Shown: positions 4,833 to 13,735 of the stretch, piece after piece
How the letters are laid out: the number at the start of each line of letters is the position of its first letter
Numbering within the stretch: position 1 is the first letter of the stretch
Assembly (NCBI RefSeq): GCF_045679555.1
Contig: NC_092120.1
Span: 6,505,074-6,569,073, forward strand
DNA from: Salvelinus alpinus
Lineage: Eukaryota; Chordata; Actinopteri; Salmoniformes; Salmonidae
DNA: 64,000 bases
Reading direction: 5' to 3'
Program-made: the position numbers and the translations under genes
Notes under the pieces: model-generated
The model's input: the letters and a program-made list of their open reading frames with translations, nothing else
Told to the model about the DNA's origin: nothing
The model's database searches: none

Positions 4833-4836
4833 GTAC
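4833..4836. repeat. Target-site duplication GTAC, left copy
   Basis: GTAC directly precedes the 5' LTR and recurs directly after the 3' LTR at 10758-10761. A 4-bp duplication fits Ty3/gypsy integration. Confidence 0.8.
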
Positions 4837-5262
4837 TGTAGCGACCCGCACAGACAGCTGTGTGTTATGTGTTAGGCTAGGAGGTGGTTGTGTTGTACTG
4901 ACCAGTACCCGGTGTTCGCGGGGTCCGACATGTCAATCAACCTGCTATCTGCCAATCACGGGAATGCCTGGAATGTTCTGATGCCGGGCATCCTGGTGGT
5001 TGGCGGAGTGGCGTGGAGGGGGGTTGGGCAGGGGGGTGGAGCATTGGAAGTTAAGACCAGGTTCAGCCTTTGTTCTCTCTCTCTTACGTCTGGGCTTCAC
5101 AAGAGAAGGTCACGATTGGCTTGTGGGTTATCTGTCATCTCTTTGGCGTGTGCTACGGCCCAAACAGTAGCCTGTGTAAAGTTGGTTTAATAAACCGTCA
5201 ATTCGCAAACTCAAGCCTCTGTCTGGACAATTGTTCATTTATGATCTAGTCAGGTCATTACA
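4837..5262 (+). repeat. 5' LTR of the Ty3/gypsy element
   Basis: 426 bp, starting TGTAGCG and ending TCATTACA (TG...CA ends). It contains an AATAAA polyadenylation signal at 5189-5194. A 100-codon open frame lies inside it and is repeated in the 3' LTR; I treat that frame as chance. Confidence 0.95.
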
Positions 5263-5263
5263 T

Positions 5264-5281
5264 TGGTGTCAGAAGTAAAAA
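5264..5281 (+). promoter_or_regulatory. Primer-binding site, probably tRNA-Leu
   Basis: One base after the 5' LTR the sequence is TGGTGTCAGAAGTAAAAA. It starts with TGG, the complement of the CCA tail. The first nine bases match the complement of the tRNA-Leu acceptor end, with some mismatches after that. The tRNA identity is an inference. Confidence 0.6.
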
Positions 5282-5354
5282 CGTTGATACAAGTTAGCCA
5301 GCTAGCTAGCTGACTTATGTGGCTAGCTACCGTAGGTGAGAACGGGGATTGAAA

Positions 5355-6425
5355 ATGCTTCGAGGGAATCCGAAAGTGAAGGTGGAGGTAGGGGACGATT
5401 ATGGCCAAGGAGGTGCGTGTGAATGGACGTCGGGGGTTCTGTCTGAGGAGATCGCCAGGGCGTCGGAGCGCAGAGGCCGCTTGAGGGAGGACGTTAGAGC
5501 GATGGCGGCTGAAGCGGGCATGAGTGCTTCGTCGACTGTATTTCGCGCGGATTCTGGTGGGCGGACCGAAGTGGTGACGTCGACGCGGCGTGACGAGGAA
5601 TCTGGGGCTCAGGATGTAAACAAACATGGCGGCGATGTAAACAAACATGGCGGCGCCCAGTTCCCGGCTGCGTCCGTATCTGTTAAGACCCCGAAGTATT
5701 CCGGTAAGGCGGATTGGGAAGCTTTTCATGCTCAGTTTGAACTGTTAGCTCATTTTAGGGGGTGGTCGGATGAAGAAAGGGCACTGCAGTTGGCTTTATG
5801 CCTCACGGATGAAGCTCTGGCCTGTTTGATATTGATTAGCCCCGAGGACAGGCATGATTATGGTGCTTTAGTGGGAGCACTGAGGAGGCGCTATGGACAG
5901 TGTGTACAGCCCGGGCTACTGCGCTCCGAACTGAGTAATAGACGCAGGCAGCCTGGAGAGCCTCTACGGGTGCTAGCTAATGACATTGAGAGCCTCTCTC
6001 GGCGGGCATATGCTCACATGCCCCCTTCCGTGCAGAGCGAGCTAGCACGGGACCAGTTCATACAGGCGCTCTCTCCTACGGAGCTGCGCATACAGACCCA
6101 GCTGGCTCATCCTGAGTCATTGCAGACAGCCTTGGAGATGGCTTTGGAGAGGGAGCTGGTGTGGGCTGGGGCTTCAGCTGGGGCTTTGGTGGGGGTGCAG
6201 GGAGACACACCCTCTGTGCGAGCTGGGGGGCAGAGCAGCCCGGAGCCGGAAAAGCCTGCTTGGGTGGCCGAAATGACAAAACTCATTCGTGCTGTGTCGC
6301 TACAGGCGGCACGAAACACACGCCCTGGTCCCAGGGTCTGCTGGGGTTGTGGCCAGCCAGGCCATCTGCGCCGAGATTGCCCCATGTCCCCCAGAGCTCA
6401 GGGAAACGGCTCGGGGTCCGCATAG
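5355..6425 (+). CDS. gag: Gag polyprotein of the Ty3/gypsy element
   Basis: The frame encodes a structural protein that packages the element's RNA. I chose the ATG at 5355. The frame is open one codon further up from a TTG at 5349, but ATG is the normal start. The product is about 356 residues. A short in-frame duplication (DVNKHGG twice, near 5614-5656) sits in the N-terminal third. The capsid-like region follows (WEAFHAQFELLAHF, then RRRYGQ). A CCHC zinc knuckle, CWGCGQPGHLRRDC, sits near the C terminus (about 6340-6381). The frame ends at TAG 6423-6425. Pol lies in the -1 frame, and a candidate frameshift signal at 6401-6444 covers the last codons. The zinc knuckle and position make the assignment secure. 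Confidence 0.92.
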   Translation: MLRGNPKVKVEVGDDYGQGGACEWTSGVLSEEIARASERRGRLREDVRAMAAEAGMSASSTVFRADSGGRTEVVTSTRRDEESGAQDVNKHGGDVNKHGGAQFPAASVSVKTPKYSGKADWEAFHAQFELLAHFRGWSDEERALQLALCLTDEALACLILISPEDRHDYGALVGALRRRYGQCVQPGLLRSELSNRRRQPGEPLRVLANDIESLSRRAYAHMPPSVQSELARDQFIQALSPTELRIQTQLAHPESLQTALEMALERELVWAGASAGALVGVQGDTPSVRAGGQSSPEPEKPAWVAEMTKLIRAVSLQAARNTRPGPRVCWGCGQPGHLRRDCPMSPRAQGNGSGSA

Positions 6426-6444
6426 ACCGGGTAGTGCGGACCCC
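6401..6444 (+). promoter_or_regulatory. Candidate programmed -1 ribosomal frameshift site
   Basis: In the gag reading frame, 6401-6407 reads G GGA AAC, a heptamer of the X XXY YYZ type. A 5-nt spacer (6408-6412) follows, then GGGGTCCGCA (6413-6422), a 12-nt loop (6423-6434) and TGCGGACCCC (6435-6444), which are perfectly complementary over 10 bp. The gag stop codon TAG opens the loop. A -1 slip here leads directly into the long pol frame. Heptamer, spacing and stem are seen directly; function is inferred from known retroviral signals. Confidence 0.85.
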
Positions 6445-9400
6445 TGGCTTTCTATCCCAACCACCATCATCTTCAGGAGGAGCCCACCGGCACAGACGGG
6501 GAAGCAAGGCTCCACTTCCCCCAGAAGCAGACGAGGGCAAGCGGATGGAGCCTGTTGTTGTGGTGGGCCGGACCTGTGTTGGGGACTTTTGTCATGTCCC
6601 TGTCACTGTGGAGGGGGTGCCCTGCTCCGCCCTGGTGGACACTGGGTCCACAGTAACCCTGGTGAGGCCAGATATTGTGCCAGGTTGGACTCAGTGTGAG
6701 CCTACAACTGTGCAGCTCCGCACAGTCACAGGTGAGCTGGCACCCATGAAAGGGAAGGGAATAATGACTCTGACAGTAGGGGGCAGGACTGTGCGTCATC
6801 CTGTGTGGGTGGCGGCTGTGCAGGACCCTTGTATCCTGGGGTTGGACTTTCTTAGGAGCACAGGCTGCCAGTTAGACCTAAATAGGGGCACACTGAGCTT
6901 CCAGGGAGGGACGGAAGTCACCATGGCCCCCCCTAATGTCACATTCACTCAACCCAACAAACCCTTTACTCCAACAGTTAAAGCAGCAGAGACTCATGGC
7001 TGCGCCCCCTCCCCCACAGCTGTGTGTGACTTTTCCCCAGTCCCCCTGTCACCTACGGCGGTGTGTTACATTCCCCCAGCTACCTCCATGACACAGCCCT
7101 CTGTGAGCCCGGGCCGCACCCCCCCAGCCCAGCTACCCCAGATGGGAGAGGAGAGGACACTGTCTGCAGTGAGGGAGATATGGGGGAGGAACTGTGTTGG
7201 TCTTGACCCCGAGCAGCAGGAACGGTTGTGGCAGTTGCTGTTTGAATTCAGAGACAGCTTTGCGTTGAGTGAGGAAGAGGTGGGTCAGACTCATCTGGTG
7301 CAGCATGAGATCGACACAGGTGATGCTCGACCCATCAAGATGCGTCCCCGCCGTATCCCGCTGGCACGCCAGGAGGCGGCAGACAAGGCTGTGTTGGAGA
7401 TGCAGCGGGCAGACTTCATTGAGCCCTCAGACAGCCCCTGGGCGGCGCCAGTCGTCATGGTTCCAAAGAAGGGGGGCAAGCTGAGGTTCTGTGCGGACTA
7501 CAGGCGGCTGAATGAGGTAACCAGGAAGGACTCATACCCCATACCACGTATCGATGAGTCGCTGGACCTGGTTAGGGGGTCCTCCTGGTTCTCCTCACTA
7601 GACCTCCGCAGTAGCTACTGGCAGGTGCCCCTCTCCCCAGAGGCCAGAGCCAAAACTGCGTTCTCCACTAACAGAGGACACTGGCAGTTCAAGGTCCTGT
7701 GCTTTGGCCTGTGCAACGCTCCAGCTACTTTTGAGCGTTTGATGGACAGGGTGCTGGATGGCATCCCCCGACAGCAGTGTCTGGTATACCTCGATGACAT
7801 CCTGGCCCATGGCAGCTCCTTCCAGTCAGCCCTGGGGGCGCTACGGCGTGTGCTGGAGAGGGTGGCTGCCGCAGGTCTGAAGCTCCACCCCGAGAAGTGC
7901 CACTTCATGAGGAGAGAGGTGTCCTTCTTGGGCCACCGAGTGGGGAAGGAGGGGATCAGCACCATGGAGGACAAGGTAGGGGCTGTCAGAGACTGGCCCA
8001 CCCCCACCGACCAGCGTCAGCTGAAGAGCTTCCTGGGCCTGGCCTCGTACTACAGGAGGTTTGTACGGGGCTTCTCAAGCGTCGCTGCTCCACTGAACCG
8101 CCTGCTGCCGAAGGACAAGGCTTTCACTTGGACAGTGGAGTGTGAGGAGGCGTTCAACACCCTCAAACGTGCACTGATCGAGGCCCCCGTGCTCGCCCCC
8201 CCTGACCTCACCTTGCCCTTTATCCTGGACACAGACGCGAGCAATGTGGGCATGGGTGGGGTGCTGGCCCAGGTGGGGCCAGAGGGGGAGAGAGTGGTGG
8301 CGTACTTCAGCAAAACATTTGACAAACATGAGCGCCGCTACTGTGTCACCCGGCGGGAGCTCTTGGCTGTTGTGGCTTCCGTCAAACACTTCAAGTACTA
8401 CCTGGGTGGTCTGCCCTTTACTGTAAGGACTGACCACTCTGCTCTCCAGTGGCTCATGTCTTTCAGAGAGCCAGAGGGGCAGGTGGCACGCTGGTTGGAG
8501 GAGCTTCAGCCGTATGACTTCACGGTGGTGCACAGGGCAGGGGCACGCCACTCCAACGCCGACGCCATGTCCCGTCGGCCCTGTACTGCAGACGGCTGCC
8601 GCCACTGTGAACGGAGAGAGGGACGGGAGAGAGAGCTGCGGGCAGAGGAGGGTGTCTGTGCCACAGTGTGTCGGGCGAGCGGGCCTGTCTGCTGTGAGCT
8701 GCAGACTGTCGACGTGGCTGAATGGCGGCAGCAGCAGGGACGGGACACAGACCTACAGCCAGTGCTACAGTGGGTAGAGGCGCAGGTGAGGCCACCATGG
8801 GAAGAGGTGACAGCGCTCTCACTCGCGACCAAAGGGTTGTGGTCGAAGTTTGAGAGACTGCGGCTGGCTGATGGCGTGCTACAGCGGGCATGGAAGGAGT
8901 CAGCTACGGGAGAGGAGAGGTGGCAGGTGGTGGTCCCAAAAGCATTGCGGGAGGCTGTGCTCCAGAGTACTCATGGGGGGGTGGGGACTGGACACTTTGG
9001 GGTCACAAAAACACTGCGCCGTCTCCGTCAGGGCTTCTACTGGGGGCAGCACAAGAGGGATGTGGAGGACTTTTGTCGCCGCTGTGACAACTGCACAGCG
9101 AGAAAGGGCCCCCCAGGCCGCTCTCATGCTCAGCTCCAACAGTTCCCAGTGGGGGCTCCCATGGAGAGGGTGGGAGTGGATGTAGTTGGGCCGTTCCCCA
9201 CCACAGACAGTGGAAACCGCTGGGTGCTCACGGCCATGGACTATTTCACAAAATGGCCCGAGGCCTATGCTCTGCCTGACCAGGAGGCAGAGACCATCGT
9301 CGACGCCCTGACAGCGGGGATGTTCAGCAGGTTTGGAGCTGCAGAGTCCATCCACAGCGACCAAGGCAGAAACTTTGAGTCCCGTGTGTTCGCCACCATG

Positions 9401-10336
9401 TGTGAGAGGCTGGGTATGCACAAGACCCGCACTACTCCTCTCCATCCTCAAAGTGATGGCCTTGTGGAGCGCTTCAACAAAACGCTTGGACAGCAGCTGG
9501 CCATCGTCTCTTCCAAACACCAGCGTGACTGGGACAAGCACCTGCCTATGGTCCTCATGGCATGCCGCTCCGCTGTCCAAGACTCCACCTCCTGCACGCC
9601 TGCCCTCCTCATGCTGGGGAGAGAGATCCGCACCCCTGCGGAGATGGCGTTTGGTCGGCCCCTGGATAGCCCTCATGTTCCTCCGGGGCCGGAGTATGCC
9701 CGGAGACTCCAGGACCGCCTGGAGACAGCCCACACCTTCGCCAGAGAGCAGCTGGTGAATGCAGGTGTGAGGCAGAAAAGGAACTATGACGTGCACACCC
9801 GGGGAAGGCACTTTGTGGCTGGGGAGCTGGTCTGGGTCTACAGCCCCCTAAGGAAAAAAGGCAGATGCCCCAAGTTGGACAGTCACTGGGTGGGACCCTG
9901 CAGTGTCCTGGAGAGGGTAGGGGAGGTTGTGTACCGGGTGCAGCTTCCTCCCAGGGGGAGAAAGGTGGCACTGCACCGGGACAGGTTAGCCCCATACAGA
10001 GGGGCCTCTTCTCCCCAAACCCCAGGAACCCCCACAATTCCCCTCTCTGGCAATGACATTCTCCAGGCACCCACCCTCAGGTGCCGCAGACAAGGCTCCA
10101 GACAGCCCACTCCCCCTGTCTCCCCCCCTGTGTCACCGCGTGGTTCCCCAGAGCCACGGACTGTATTACCCGTTCCCGCTTCCTTGTCCCCCATATCCCT
10201 GCCTTCATCCCCTGGTTCCCAGAGGGGCACTCTGCGACCATCACGGCCACGCAGGCAAAGGAGACCTCCGGGTCGCTTCAGAGACTTTGTTTGTTCCCTC
10301 GGGGACGAGGGACTTTGTGGTGGGGGGGCTGTGTAG
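6408..10336 (+). CDS. pol: Pol polyprotein (PR-RT-RNase H-integrase)
   Basis: Pol is probably expressed as a Gag-Pol fusion through the frameshift site just upstream; the frame itself is open from about 6161. About 1,309 codons follow the shift. Domains in order: aspartic protease with LVDTGSTVTLV (DTG near 6638); reverse transcriptase with FCADYRRLNEV, SSLDLRSSYWQV and the catalytic YLDDIL (7787-7804); RNase H with DTDASNVGMGG (near 8230) and TDHSALQWL; integrase with an HHCC zinc finger (about 8965-9100), catalytic Asp at about 9179 and 9359, and Glu at about 9467 (36-residue step, DD35E); then a GPY/F-like segment WVGPCSVL. All catalytic residues checked are present. The TAG stop (10334-10336) lies inside the first five bases of the 3' LTR, so coding and LTR overlap. 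No internal stop is seen. Confidence 0.95.
10320..10331 (+). promoter_or_regulatory. Polypurine-like tract before the 3' LTR
   Basis: A G-rich run (gtgggggggctg) directly precedes the 3' LTR, where plus-strand DNA synthesis would be primed. It is shorter and less pure than many polypurine tracts. Confidence 0.5.
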
Positions 10337-10757
10337 CGACCCGCACAGACAGCTGTGTGTTATGTGTTAGGCTAGGAGGTGGTTGTGTTGTACTGACCAG
10401 TACCCGGTGTTCGCGGGGTCCGACATGTCAATCAACCTGCTATCTGCCAATCACGGGAATGCCTGGAATGTTCTGATGCCGGGCATCCTGGTGGTTGGCG
10501 GAGTGGCGTGGAGGGGGGTTGGGCAGGGGGGTGGAGCATTGGAAGTTAAGACCAGGTTCAGCCTTTGTTCTCTCTCTCTTACGTCTGGGCTTCACAAGAG
10601 AAGGTCACGATTGGCTTGTGGGTTATCTGTCATCTCTTTGGCGTGTGCTACGGCCCAAACAGTAGCCTGTGTAAAGTTGGTTTAATAAACCGTCAATTCG
10701 CAAACTCAAGCCTCTGTCTGGACAATTGTTCATTTATGATCTAGTCAGGTCATTACA
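10332..10757 (+). repeat. 3' LTR of the Ty3/gypsy element
   Basis: 426 bp. Compared line by line with the 5' LTR I found no difference. It is followed by GTAC (10758-10761), the right target duplication. Confidence 0.95.
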
Positions 10758-10929
10758 GTACTTTCAACTCCATTCCCTGACACCCAAAATGATTTGTTAC
10801 ATTTGGAATATTTAGCAGGACAGGAAAATGGTCCAACAAACTTAAAGAGAAAATCCCTGGTCATCCCTACTGCATCTTATGTGGCGGACTCACTAAACAC
10901 AAATGCTTTGTTTGTAAATTATGTTGGAG

Positions 10930-11276: not shown

Positions 11277-13735
11277 CTTTTTTGCAGTGTTGTTGGGCTA
11301 ATATTCACATCCGTAGCAACATCCCCCTTTAAATCCTTTCTCAATAGAAGCATTGAGTGAATTGTAGCTTTAAGATTAAAGTTAAGAAGTAAGATTAGGA
11401 GATTAGGAGATCGCATGCTTTCTGTGATGGCACTGAACGTATTTGGAGGGATCCCCCTTTTGAAGAAACTCACAGTCAACAGATGTTGTACACAGGAGCT
11501 ATCTGATTTGCTATGCAGGATAGTTAATATGTCACAGTCAATAACAAGCCTGACATTTAAGTCAGAGGAGATAGTCACTTTGAGACCACCAAACTGCTCT
11601 GACACCAAAGGAGCTGTTCTTGAGCTTCCTCATTTCTATCATCTTCAAGAGGTGAGATTTTCATTCCCTAATGCGCATCACTTAGAAAAATGTGCATTCA
11701 AATGCCTTGAAAACATCACAGATCTCTCTGTGCCTATAGTTGATGAGCCACAGGCACAGCTTCTGCAGTCTGGCATCAAAAGACTACAGGCGTTTGATTT
11801 TTACAACAAATGCATTTCCTTTGAGTCAGTTTGTGAAACAGTATTCAAACTCTCAAACACAGAAATGAATGTAAGAAATTATCAATTCTGGAACATCACC
11901 ACATCTGCTGTGAGAAACTGCCAGGGGATAAAGTGGATTCATTTCTATTATTATGAACATGAACATGATGCAATTAACTTGAGTTTGATCCATTATTTGA
12001 AGAATCTCATTGATTTGGGAAGTTGAAATCAGTATGCTTTGTGACACTCAAAAGGGTCCCGTTCTGTGGCTGAAAAAACTGTGCCTGTTTAGCTTTCACA
12101 TCACAAACATCGCGTCAGAGCAGTTTGGTTGCTTGAAGAATCTGGAACAGCTGATTTTGTTAGGAAATCAGATTACCACTGTTGCAGATTTTACATTTAA
12201 GGATCTAGGTAAATTGAGGTTCCTAGACCTACGGAATAACAAGATCTCTCAAATAACAAAGAACAGTTTCTTTGGCCTGCATGGCTTGGAGAGCCTATTT
12301 CTGGAACTAAACACATTTGAAACGATTGAAGCATTTGCTTTCATCCACCTCACTTTGCTGAAGCATGTATGTTTAGGGGACTTTCACCCTTGCCTAGTGA
12401 GTTGGAGAGTAGCGTGAATGTGAATCTGACACATATTTGGTGTCTTCCCTCAAGGGTTAATGCACATTAACATTTCTTCCATGTGGTACACCCTCAACAT
12501 CATCATTTGCAGCAACAGCACCGCAAAACCAGGGATTTCTCTTCAGCTCAGTGCCACAACTGTATTCTTCCAGGACTGCTGGAGACCGTTTTTCCAGTCT
12601 GTCGTCAGCCTCATAGCCATAACAGAACACCTCCTGTGTGGGTCTCATTTTGCCGCAAGATACTTCACCACCCTACAGTACTTTGGCTTCAATTCTGTGC
12701 TGTCAGCTGAATTTGTGGACATGACTGACCTGAACACACTTGTGGAGCTGAGGACAAACAGCTGTATAGTTTCAGCAGGCGTGACATGTAAAAACGAGAA
12801 TGGAATCCAGAACTTTGCCAGGTAACAAGAAAGATGTACTGATAATGAGGAGCATACCATTTATTGTACAACCATATAGGCAACACACGCATAGAACACC
12901 AGCATGGCCGTTTAGCATTTGGACTTGCCATCTAGGCCTGGATGTGCAGCCACGACCTGTTTTGAAAGCTTTCTCTATTGATGGTGTCCATAATATGAGT
13001 ATCAAGGCATGTCTTTGTTTCCATCATTGCGCCATCCATCTCAGGTACTCAGCAGCCAACTGTTCCCTGGATGTGGGCTTTGTCCTGTTCCTCAGCATCT
13101 CGGGGGCCTGCTCCTCTTCATGCTGGTGGTGCTGCTCCGTCAGCTGGCTCGGGAATACCTGCTGGCCTTCTGCCACATCATCCTCGCCTGGCTGGAGGAG
13201 GCTGTACGGAGGCCCAACCCCAGGGGGCGCTATTGCTATGATGCCTTTGTGTCGTACAGTGGGAGAGACGAGCGCTGGGTGGTGGAGCAGCTGCTTCCGG
13301 GGCTGGAGCAGAAGGAGCCTCCTTTCCTGCGTCTATGTCTGCACAGCAGGGATTTCCAATTGGGGAAGGACATTGTGGACAACATCACAGACAGCCTCTA
13401 CGGTATGTATCCTGGACCACTAGAAATACTATATACAGACACACTGATTCAAAATGCCAAGCCTATGGCATCACCATCTAATGATCCTTCTTACTGGTCT
13501 GGTTCCAGGCAGCCACTACACCGTGTGTGTGGTGAGTCGTAACTACCTGCGCAGTAACTGGTGCTCCCTGGAGCTGCGGCTGGCCACACTCCGTTTGCTG
13601 GTGGAGCAAAGGGTCATCATTATCTTGGTCTTCCTGGAGGAAATCCCCCCTCGCCAGCTGTCTGCCCACCACCGCCTGTCTAGGCTGGTCAAGACCAGGT
13701 ACGTACAGTATGTGGAGAGGGGGTTCTGTGAACTA
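11277..13735 (+). pseudogene. Toll-like receptor pseudogene (teleost TLR11/22-like)
   Basis: TLRs sense microbial ligands and signal through a cytosolic TIR domain. Leucine-rich repeats are readable at 11415-12417 (for example LEQLILLGNQITTV and LRFLDLRNNKISQIT), then an LRR C-terminal region (12460-12821), a membrane segment with FVLFLSIS and LLLFMLVVLL (about 13080-13135), and a TIR domain with YDAFVSYSGRDERWV, LCLHSRDF and SRNYLRSNWCSLEL. Two GT-AG introns fit: 12822-13044 and 13403-13508, the second splitting the TIR. Breaks: frame changes near 12020 and 12400-12470, and a one-base slip in a G run near 13100. In the BB loop, RDFQLGK carries Leu where TLRs usually have Pro. The TIR is cut off near 13735 before its last motifs, just upstream of a Tc1/L2 nest. 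No start is identified. Subfamily naming is tentative. Confidence 0.82.

Follow-up and report, generated by a model that had tools for sequence, protein, structure and literature searches.

Structure of the element

The window, meaning the whole 64,000-nucleotide stretch of Salvelinus alpinus DNA that was analysed, contains a Ty3/gypsy (Metaviridae) element on the forward strand, with long terminal repeats (LTRs), a gag gene with a CCHC motif and a pol gene in the order protease, reverse transcriptase, RNase H and integrase. The features of this element, referred to below as the window element, are as follows.

4837-10757, + strand: Ty3/gypsy element with LTRs, gag and pol
4833-4836 (left copy) and 10758-10761 (right copy), + strand: target-site duplication GTAC
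4837-5262, + strand: 5' LTR, 426 bp, TGTAGC...TTACA, identical to 10332-10757
5264-5276, + strand: probable primer binding site, TGGTGTCAGAAGT
5355-6425, + strand: gag, from the first in-frame ATG (presumed start) to TAG, with a capsid-like region and a CCHC zinc knuckle
6401-10336, + strand: pol in the -1 frame, encoding protease, reverse transcriptase, RNase H and integrase
10332-10757, + strand: 3' LTR, 426 bp, identical to the 5' LTR

The tRNA matching the primer binding site is presumably tRNA-Leu. Domain searches of gag gave a match to PF00098 above the cut-off and a Ty3-capsid match (PF19259) below it, while comparison of gag with PDB sequences returned nothing better than E 0.0011, with nearly all matches falling on the zinc knuckle and one, PDB 5uif, on the capsid region (E 0.021). 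The pol stop codon falls within the opening bases of the 3' LTR. A scan of five pieces gave no chromodomain match at E 0.1, and the integrase C-terminus matched PF22938 and PF24626 instead; because of the missing chromodomain match, the element was not placed among the sushi-ichi chromoviruses.

Behind the 3' LTR, positions 11361-13542 hold open stretches in several frames, one of which has a TIR match below the Pfam cut-off; the others appear leucine-rich by eye, and 11361-12023 had no Pfam match. The region resembles a Toll-like receptor gene that is broken or spread over several frames.

A predicted frameshift signal at the gag/pol junction

Gag and pol lie in different frames; the -1 frame stays open between 6116 and 10336, across the putative shift site, and overlaps gag by 310 nt. 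The junction carries the following features.

6401-6407, + strand: slippery heptamer G GGA AAC in the gag frame, also found in other families
6408-6412, + strand: 5-nt spacer GGCTC
6413-6422, + strand: stem 1, 5' arm, GGGGTCCGCA
6423-6434, + strand: 12-nt loop with two gag-frame stops, TAG 6423-6425 and TAG 6432-6434
6435-6444, + strand: stem 1, 3' arm, TGCGGACCCC, the exact reverse complement of the 5' arm
6429-6434, + strand: candidate stem 2, 5' arm, GGGTAG, weak (98/5000 shuffles as good)
6452-6457, + strand: candidate stem 2, 3' arm, CTATCC, giving 6 bp with one G-U

An earlier note on this DNA had described the heptamer, the 5-nt spacer, a perfect 10-bp stem whose loop contains the gag TAG, and a pol frame open at -1, and all of these positions proved exact. 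The gag codons GGA AAC begin at 6402, so that the heptamer has the form X XXY YYZ in the zero frame, and no other XXXAAAN or XXXTTTN heptamer occurs in the gag open reading frame, whichever frame is considered. The 10-bp stem follows after 5 nt, where it is predicted to act as the stimulatory structure. An Rfam search of 6380-6520 gave seven matches, none above the gathering score and none to a frameshift family.

The chance expectation for this arrangement was calculated from dinucleotide shuffles, among which an in-frame slippery heptamer fell within the last 41 codons (stop included) in 319/20000 and GGGAAAC itself in 35/20000, while a fully paired stem of 10 bp or more, beginning 3-9 nt downstream of a slippery heptamer, was obtained in 5/20000. 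Counting both strands, the 64-kb window contains 453 slippery-type heptamers, one with such a 10-bp stem and one more with an 8-bp stem. When wobble pairs and a spacing of 4-7 nt were allowed, stem 1 was matched by 3/5000 shuffles. The fold of the whole 103-nt region is ordinary (z = -1.60; 15/200 shuffles fold as well), which counts against the signal, and therefore the evidence rests in the placement of the hairpin.

Copies of the window family

A search with 201 bp of the junction, in which 40 of 149 candidates were scored, placed 33 copies (including the window) at the top score and seven slightly lower. With the gag capsid as query 150 of 442 candidates were scored, 31 of them (including the window) reaching the top score and 14 sharing one score at 98% identity. 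Judged from these copies and from the identical LTRs, the window family, designated A1, is young, recently active and multi-copy.

Some copies lie in succession: members of the window family lie approximately 5.46-5.47 kb apart at G000:C32:23482930 and 23488404 and at C4:46061861 and 46067320, and copies of one family lie 4.83 kb apart at C24:5525551, 5530376 and 5535201. The window element minus one LTR measures 5.495 kb, and such successive copies of the same family look like tandem elements with common LTRs.

Conservation within A1 was examined in 20 places that were less than fully identical in the gag capsid, two of which, L118 and L125, were dropped because their junctions did not align. 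Among the 18 remaining divergent copies, the heptamer was kept in 14 and all ten stem pairs in 11, with standard pairs in 173/180 cells. Differences amounted to 5/126 in the heptamer (4.0%), 10/359 in the stem (2.8%) and 147/2953 elsewhere (5.0%), giving no clear sign of purifying selection on heptamer and stem in these 18 copies. There is accordingly little sign in the alignment of extra constraint on the signal within A1, which counts against a frameshift function; a junction difference rate near background can be attributed to the fact that mostly dead copies are expected to drift. The second loop TAG (6432-6434) reads CAG in five of the 18 aligned copies (L114, L122, L123, L126 and L127).

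The earlier note had held that a frameshift signal would be refuted if other copies had disrupted heptamers or stems, or if their gag and pol shared a frame. Such copies do exist: the heptamer is broken in L077, L120, L122, L126 and L127, the stem is broken in L078 (by a single mismatch) and in others, and gag and pol share one frame in L077, where a deletion removed the heptamer, and in L079 of the related family described below. They are read as products of decay because other copies of their families keep the signal.

The related family A2

A second family, A2, was found via L079 and is 54-55% identical to the window in the gag capsid. Of its 44 candidates 40 were scored, and 20 copies were fetched. 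GGGAAAC stood in the gag frame in all 20, and pol, located by distance to a conserved pol motif, lay in the -1 frame in 11; in the other nine, intervening indels place the pol motif outside the -1 frame, which counts against the frameshift reading. Compared with 23 of the 40 scored copies, L079 itself carries one extra base, and its gag reads into pol in one frame. A C-tract of variable length directly behind the stem shifts the relation between the gag and pol frames in A2 (L089-L108), and several indels occur there.

Comparison of the window with the A2 copy L089 showed 153/261 junction positions to be identical, distributed as 34/42 in the zinc knuckle, 8/18 in the gag linker, 7/10 and 6/10 in the two stem arms, 2/7 in the stem-2 region and 41/82 in the pol linker. 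Positions 6399-6408 were identical at 10/10, codon third positions included.

Pairing in stem 1 was assessed in an alignment of 12 rows, made up of the window, L078 and ten A2 copies out of the 20 fetched. Standard pairing was found in 105/120 cells, as against 20.5-53.3% when the arms were slid by 1-3 columns, and 0/500 column shuffles gave as many; the A2 hairpin alone was matched by 15/5000 shuffles. The innermost pair, A-U in the window, is replaced on both sides by G-C in most A2 rows, the outermost pair (6413-6444) is lost in A2, and the other pairs vary within U-A/U-G and G-C/G-U. The covariation is thin and can be taken as supportive of the predicted stem, not as proof, because the single pair changed on both sides is equalled in 214/500 column shuffles and the covariation score is reached by 19/500. 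Alignment of further copies had been proposed in the earlier note as a check on whether heptamer, spacer and stem covary while gag codons drift; heptamer, spacing and stem are kept in A2, covariation is thin and within-family constraint is little.

Junctions of other gypsy families

In family B the corresponding position holds GGGAAAC at 27 of 30 loci, the remainder being two with GGGAAAA and one with another sequence. The heptamer could be traced in the gag frame, 37 nt before a TAA, in 21 of the 30 loci, and in 20 of those 21 the -1 frame is open for at least 938 nt. A simple hairpin is weak in this family (179/5000 shuffles as good). Its zinc knuckle reads CCLYCGKPGHF, from which we take the family to be sushi-like.

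Family C includes L049 and further loci within L039-L068. Of its 30 loci, 24 have G TTA AAC, and 13 of these 24 also show the two stem arms, GGCTCGCT and AGCGAGCC, as exact matches nearby. The stem comprises 8 bp and stands 5 nt behind the heptamer, with 2/5000 shuffles as good, and an 8-nt loop segment, TTGGGAGG, is complementary to the downstream CCTCCCAA (304/5000 by the freer statistic). Family C is a second gypsy family, with a putative -1 signal of a different build.

Predicted -1 signals recur among the gypsy families of this genome, yet they are not universal: L075 encodes gag and pol in a single frame of 1565 aa, and at L083, L086 and L085, where pol is offset by -1, the junction has no XXXAAAN or XXXTTTN heptamer. 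The zinc knuckle of the L083 and L086 family reads CLYCGRAGHF.

Hairpin or pseudoknot

The loop of stem 1 could pair with sequence further downstream to form an H-type pseudoknot (6429-6434 with 6452-6457), and chances are about even that this weakly supported structure forms. Candidate stem 2 leaves 7 nt for crossing stem 1, and by a freer statistic, in which any place in the loop is permitted, 359/5000 shuffles are as good. In A2, GGGGGC can pair with GCCCCC at a similar location, though the register differs, with 535/5000 shuffles as good.

That the simple hairpin drives frameshifting alone, with no pseudoknot, is a reading we place slightly below an even chance. It agrees with the significance of stem 1 (3/5000) in comparison to stem 2 (98/5000 in the window and 535/5000 in A2) and with the poor conservation of the stem-2 bases between the window and A2 (2/7), whereas complementarity between loop and downstream sequence at about the same place in window and A2, and its occurrence in family C too, speaks for a pseudoknot, as do a C-U mismatch in four divergent A1 copies where the young copies have U-A and the pseudoknot that serves as the stimulator of PEG10. 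A home-made pseudoknot scan based on stacking sums found 0/300 shuffles as good for the window, L079 and B and 4/300 for C, but the stem 2 that it picked in the window was a different and remote one, a choice that also sits well with the simple hairpin; the scan was not relied on because stem 1 dominated the sums and this remote stem 2 was chosen. Overall, the predicted hairpin is better supported than the predicted pseudoknot.

Probable programmed frameshifting and its alternatives

Positions 6401-6457 very probably constitute a -1 programmed ribosomal frameshift signal that would set the ratio of Gag to Gag-Pol in this Ty3/gypsy element. This reading, which the earlier note had advanced for the gag/pol junction, emerges as the best one because the -1 arrangement occurs in a young multi-copy family with identical LTRs and because heptamer, spacing and stem are kept in A2. 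Both slippage in cells and the pseudoknot are inferred from sequence.

Pausing at a structure together with re-pairing of tRNAs is the established picture of -1 frameshifting. Applied to this element, ribosomes translating gag would arrive at GGA AAC just as the hairpin, or possibly a pseudoknot, meets the mRNA entry channel, and the hairpin would pause the ribosome while these codons are decoded. Most ribosomes would unwind the hairpin and terminate at TAG 6423, while in a minority both tRNAs would slip and re-pair on GGG AAA, entering the pol frame and continuing through protease, reverse transcriptase, RNase H and integrase. The fusion product would read ...AQGN and then RLGV... in the pol frame.

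Alternatively, the first pol-frame ATG (6545), which lies 120 nt behind the gag stop and ahead of the protease match, might serve as the start of pol through re-initiation or internal initiation. We regard this as very improbable: it would leave the heptamer and stem unexplained, and it was rejected on the A2 copy L089, which has no ATG at the aligned place though its pol is in the -1 frame.

Even less credible is that the -1 offset arose by mutation of a decayed copy, with the heptamer and stem there by chance. One-frame copies do exist, produced in L077 by a deletion across the heptamer and in L079 by one extra base, and gag-containing open frames of 1018, 1611, 1619, 1623 and 1610 aa were found at five of the 150 scored places, with further ones of 899 and 886 aa at two places. 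These observations are set against 33/40 junction copies at the top score, identical LTRs, a -1 offset in 11/20 A2 copies and in families B and C, and the low chance of the heptamer-stem geometry; the sharing of the -1 offset by many intact copies led to the rejection of an offset by mutation or decay. Finally, stop-codon readthrough was rejected because pol lies in another frame than gag.

Comparison with known systems

The mechanism of -1 frameshifting at such junctions is already known, and the window element looks like a well-supported new example of it. GGGAAAC followed by a downstream structure is the gag-pro signal of type D simian retroviruses, and GGGAAAC is also the heptamer of PNMA3 (Ma3). 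Type D simian retroviruses use separate gag-pro and pro-pol shifts, whereas a single shift in the window element would reach protease plus the rest of pol. With mammalian ribosomes G_GGA_AAC is described as being among the most shift-prone heptamers (PMC5009743).

The closest known match that we found is PEG10. According to its published description, PEG10 shifts at G GGA AAC followed by a 5-nt spacer and a pseudoknot, at an efficiency of 22% in reporters (PMC2800197, PMC4598141). The window element carries the same GGGAAAC and 5-nt spacer, as judged by comparison with that description. The likeness extends to a structured stimulator, predicted in our element, to a protease in the -1 frame soon after the site and to a zinc finger that ends the gag part (PMC2800197, PMC4598141, PMC10570562). 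As described, PEG10 differs in being a host gene that lacks LTRs and in having a stimulator reported as a pseudoknot, and it is related to sushi-ichi elements, whereas the window element gave no chromodomain match. PNMA3 shows a comparable likeness, being described as Ty3/gypsy-derived with a classical heptanucleotide and an H-type pseudoknot that is about 20% efficient (PMC5009743); it differs in being a host gene, with no functional domain reported behind the shift in the account consulted (PMC11011659).

Of 51 animal LTR retrotransposons in a 2003 survey, as cited in PMC5009743, 28 had their pol at -1, many with classical heptamers; most were in D. melanogaster according to the citing passage, which names no fish element. 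Our literature search found no report of such signals in fish elements, with subscription papers mostly outside its coverage, and we make no claim that they are unpublished.

It is conceivable, though rather unlikely, that GGGAAAC, its 5-nt spacer and the structure behind them, whether stem-loop or pseudoknot, form an old vertebrate Metaviridae cassette common to A1/A2 and B in this one genome and to PEG10 and PNMA3. If so, the mammalian frameshift genes would keep an inherited signal, sharing an ancestor with living retrotransposons, and would not represent separate inventions. The metaviral ancestor of PEG10 has been described as almost certainly frameshifting, and the extant element chosen as its proxy lacks a frameshift (PMC11011659, 2024). 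Families such as B, with GGGAAAC, could be better proxies for this ancestor, and the window element offers a clean, recently active retrotransposon with the heptamer and spacing of PEG10. Elements of this kind make it testable whether the high frameshifting of PEG10 was inherited or was tuned after domestication.
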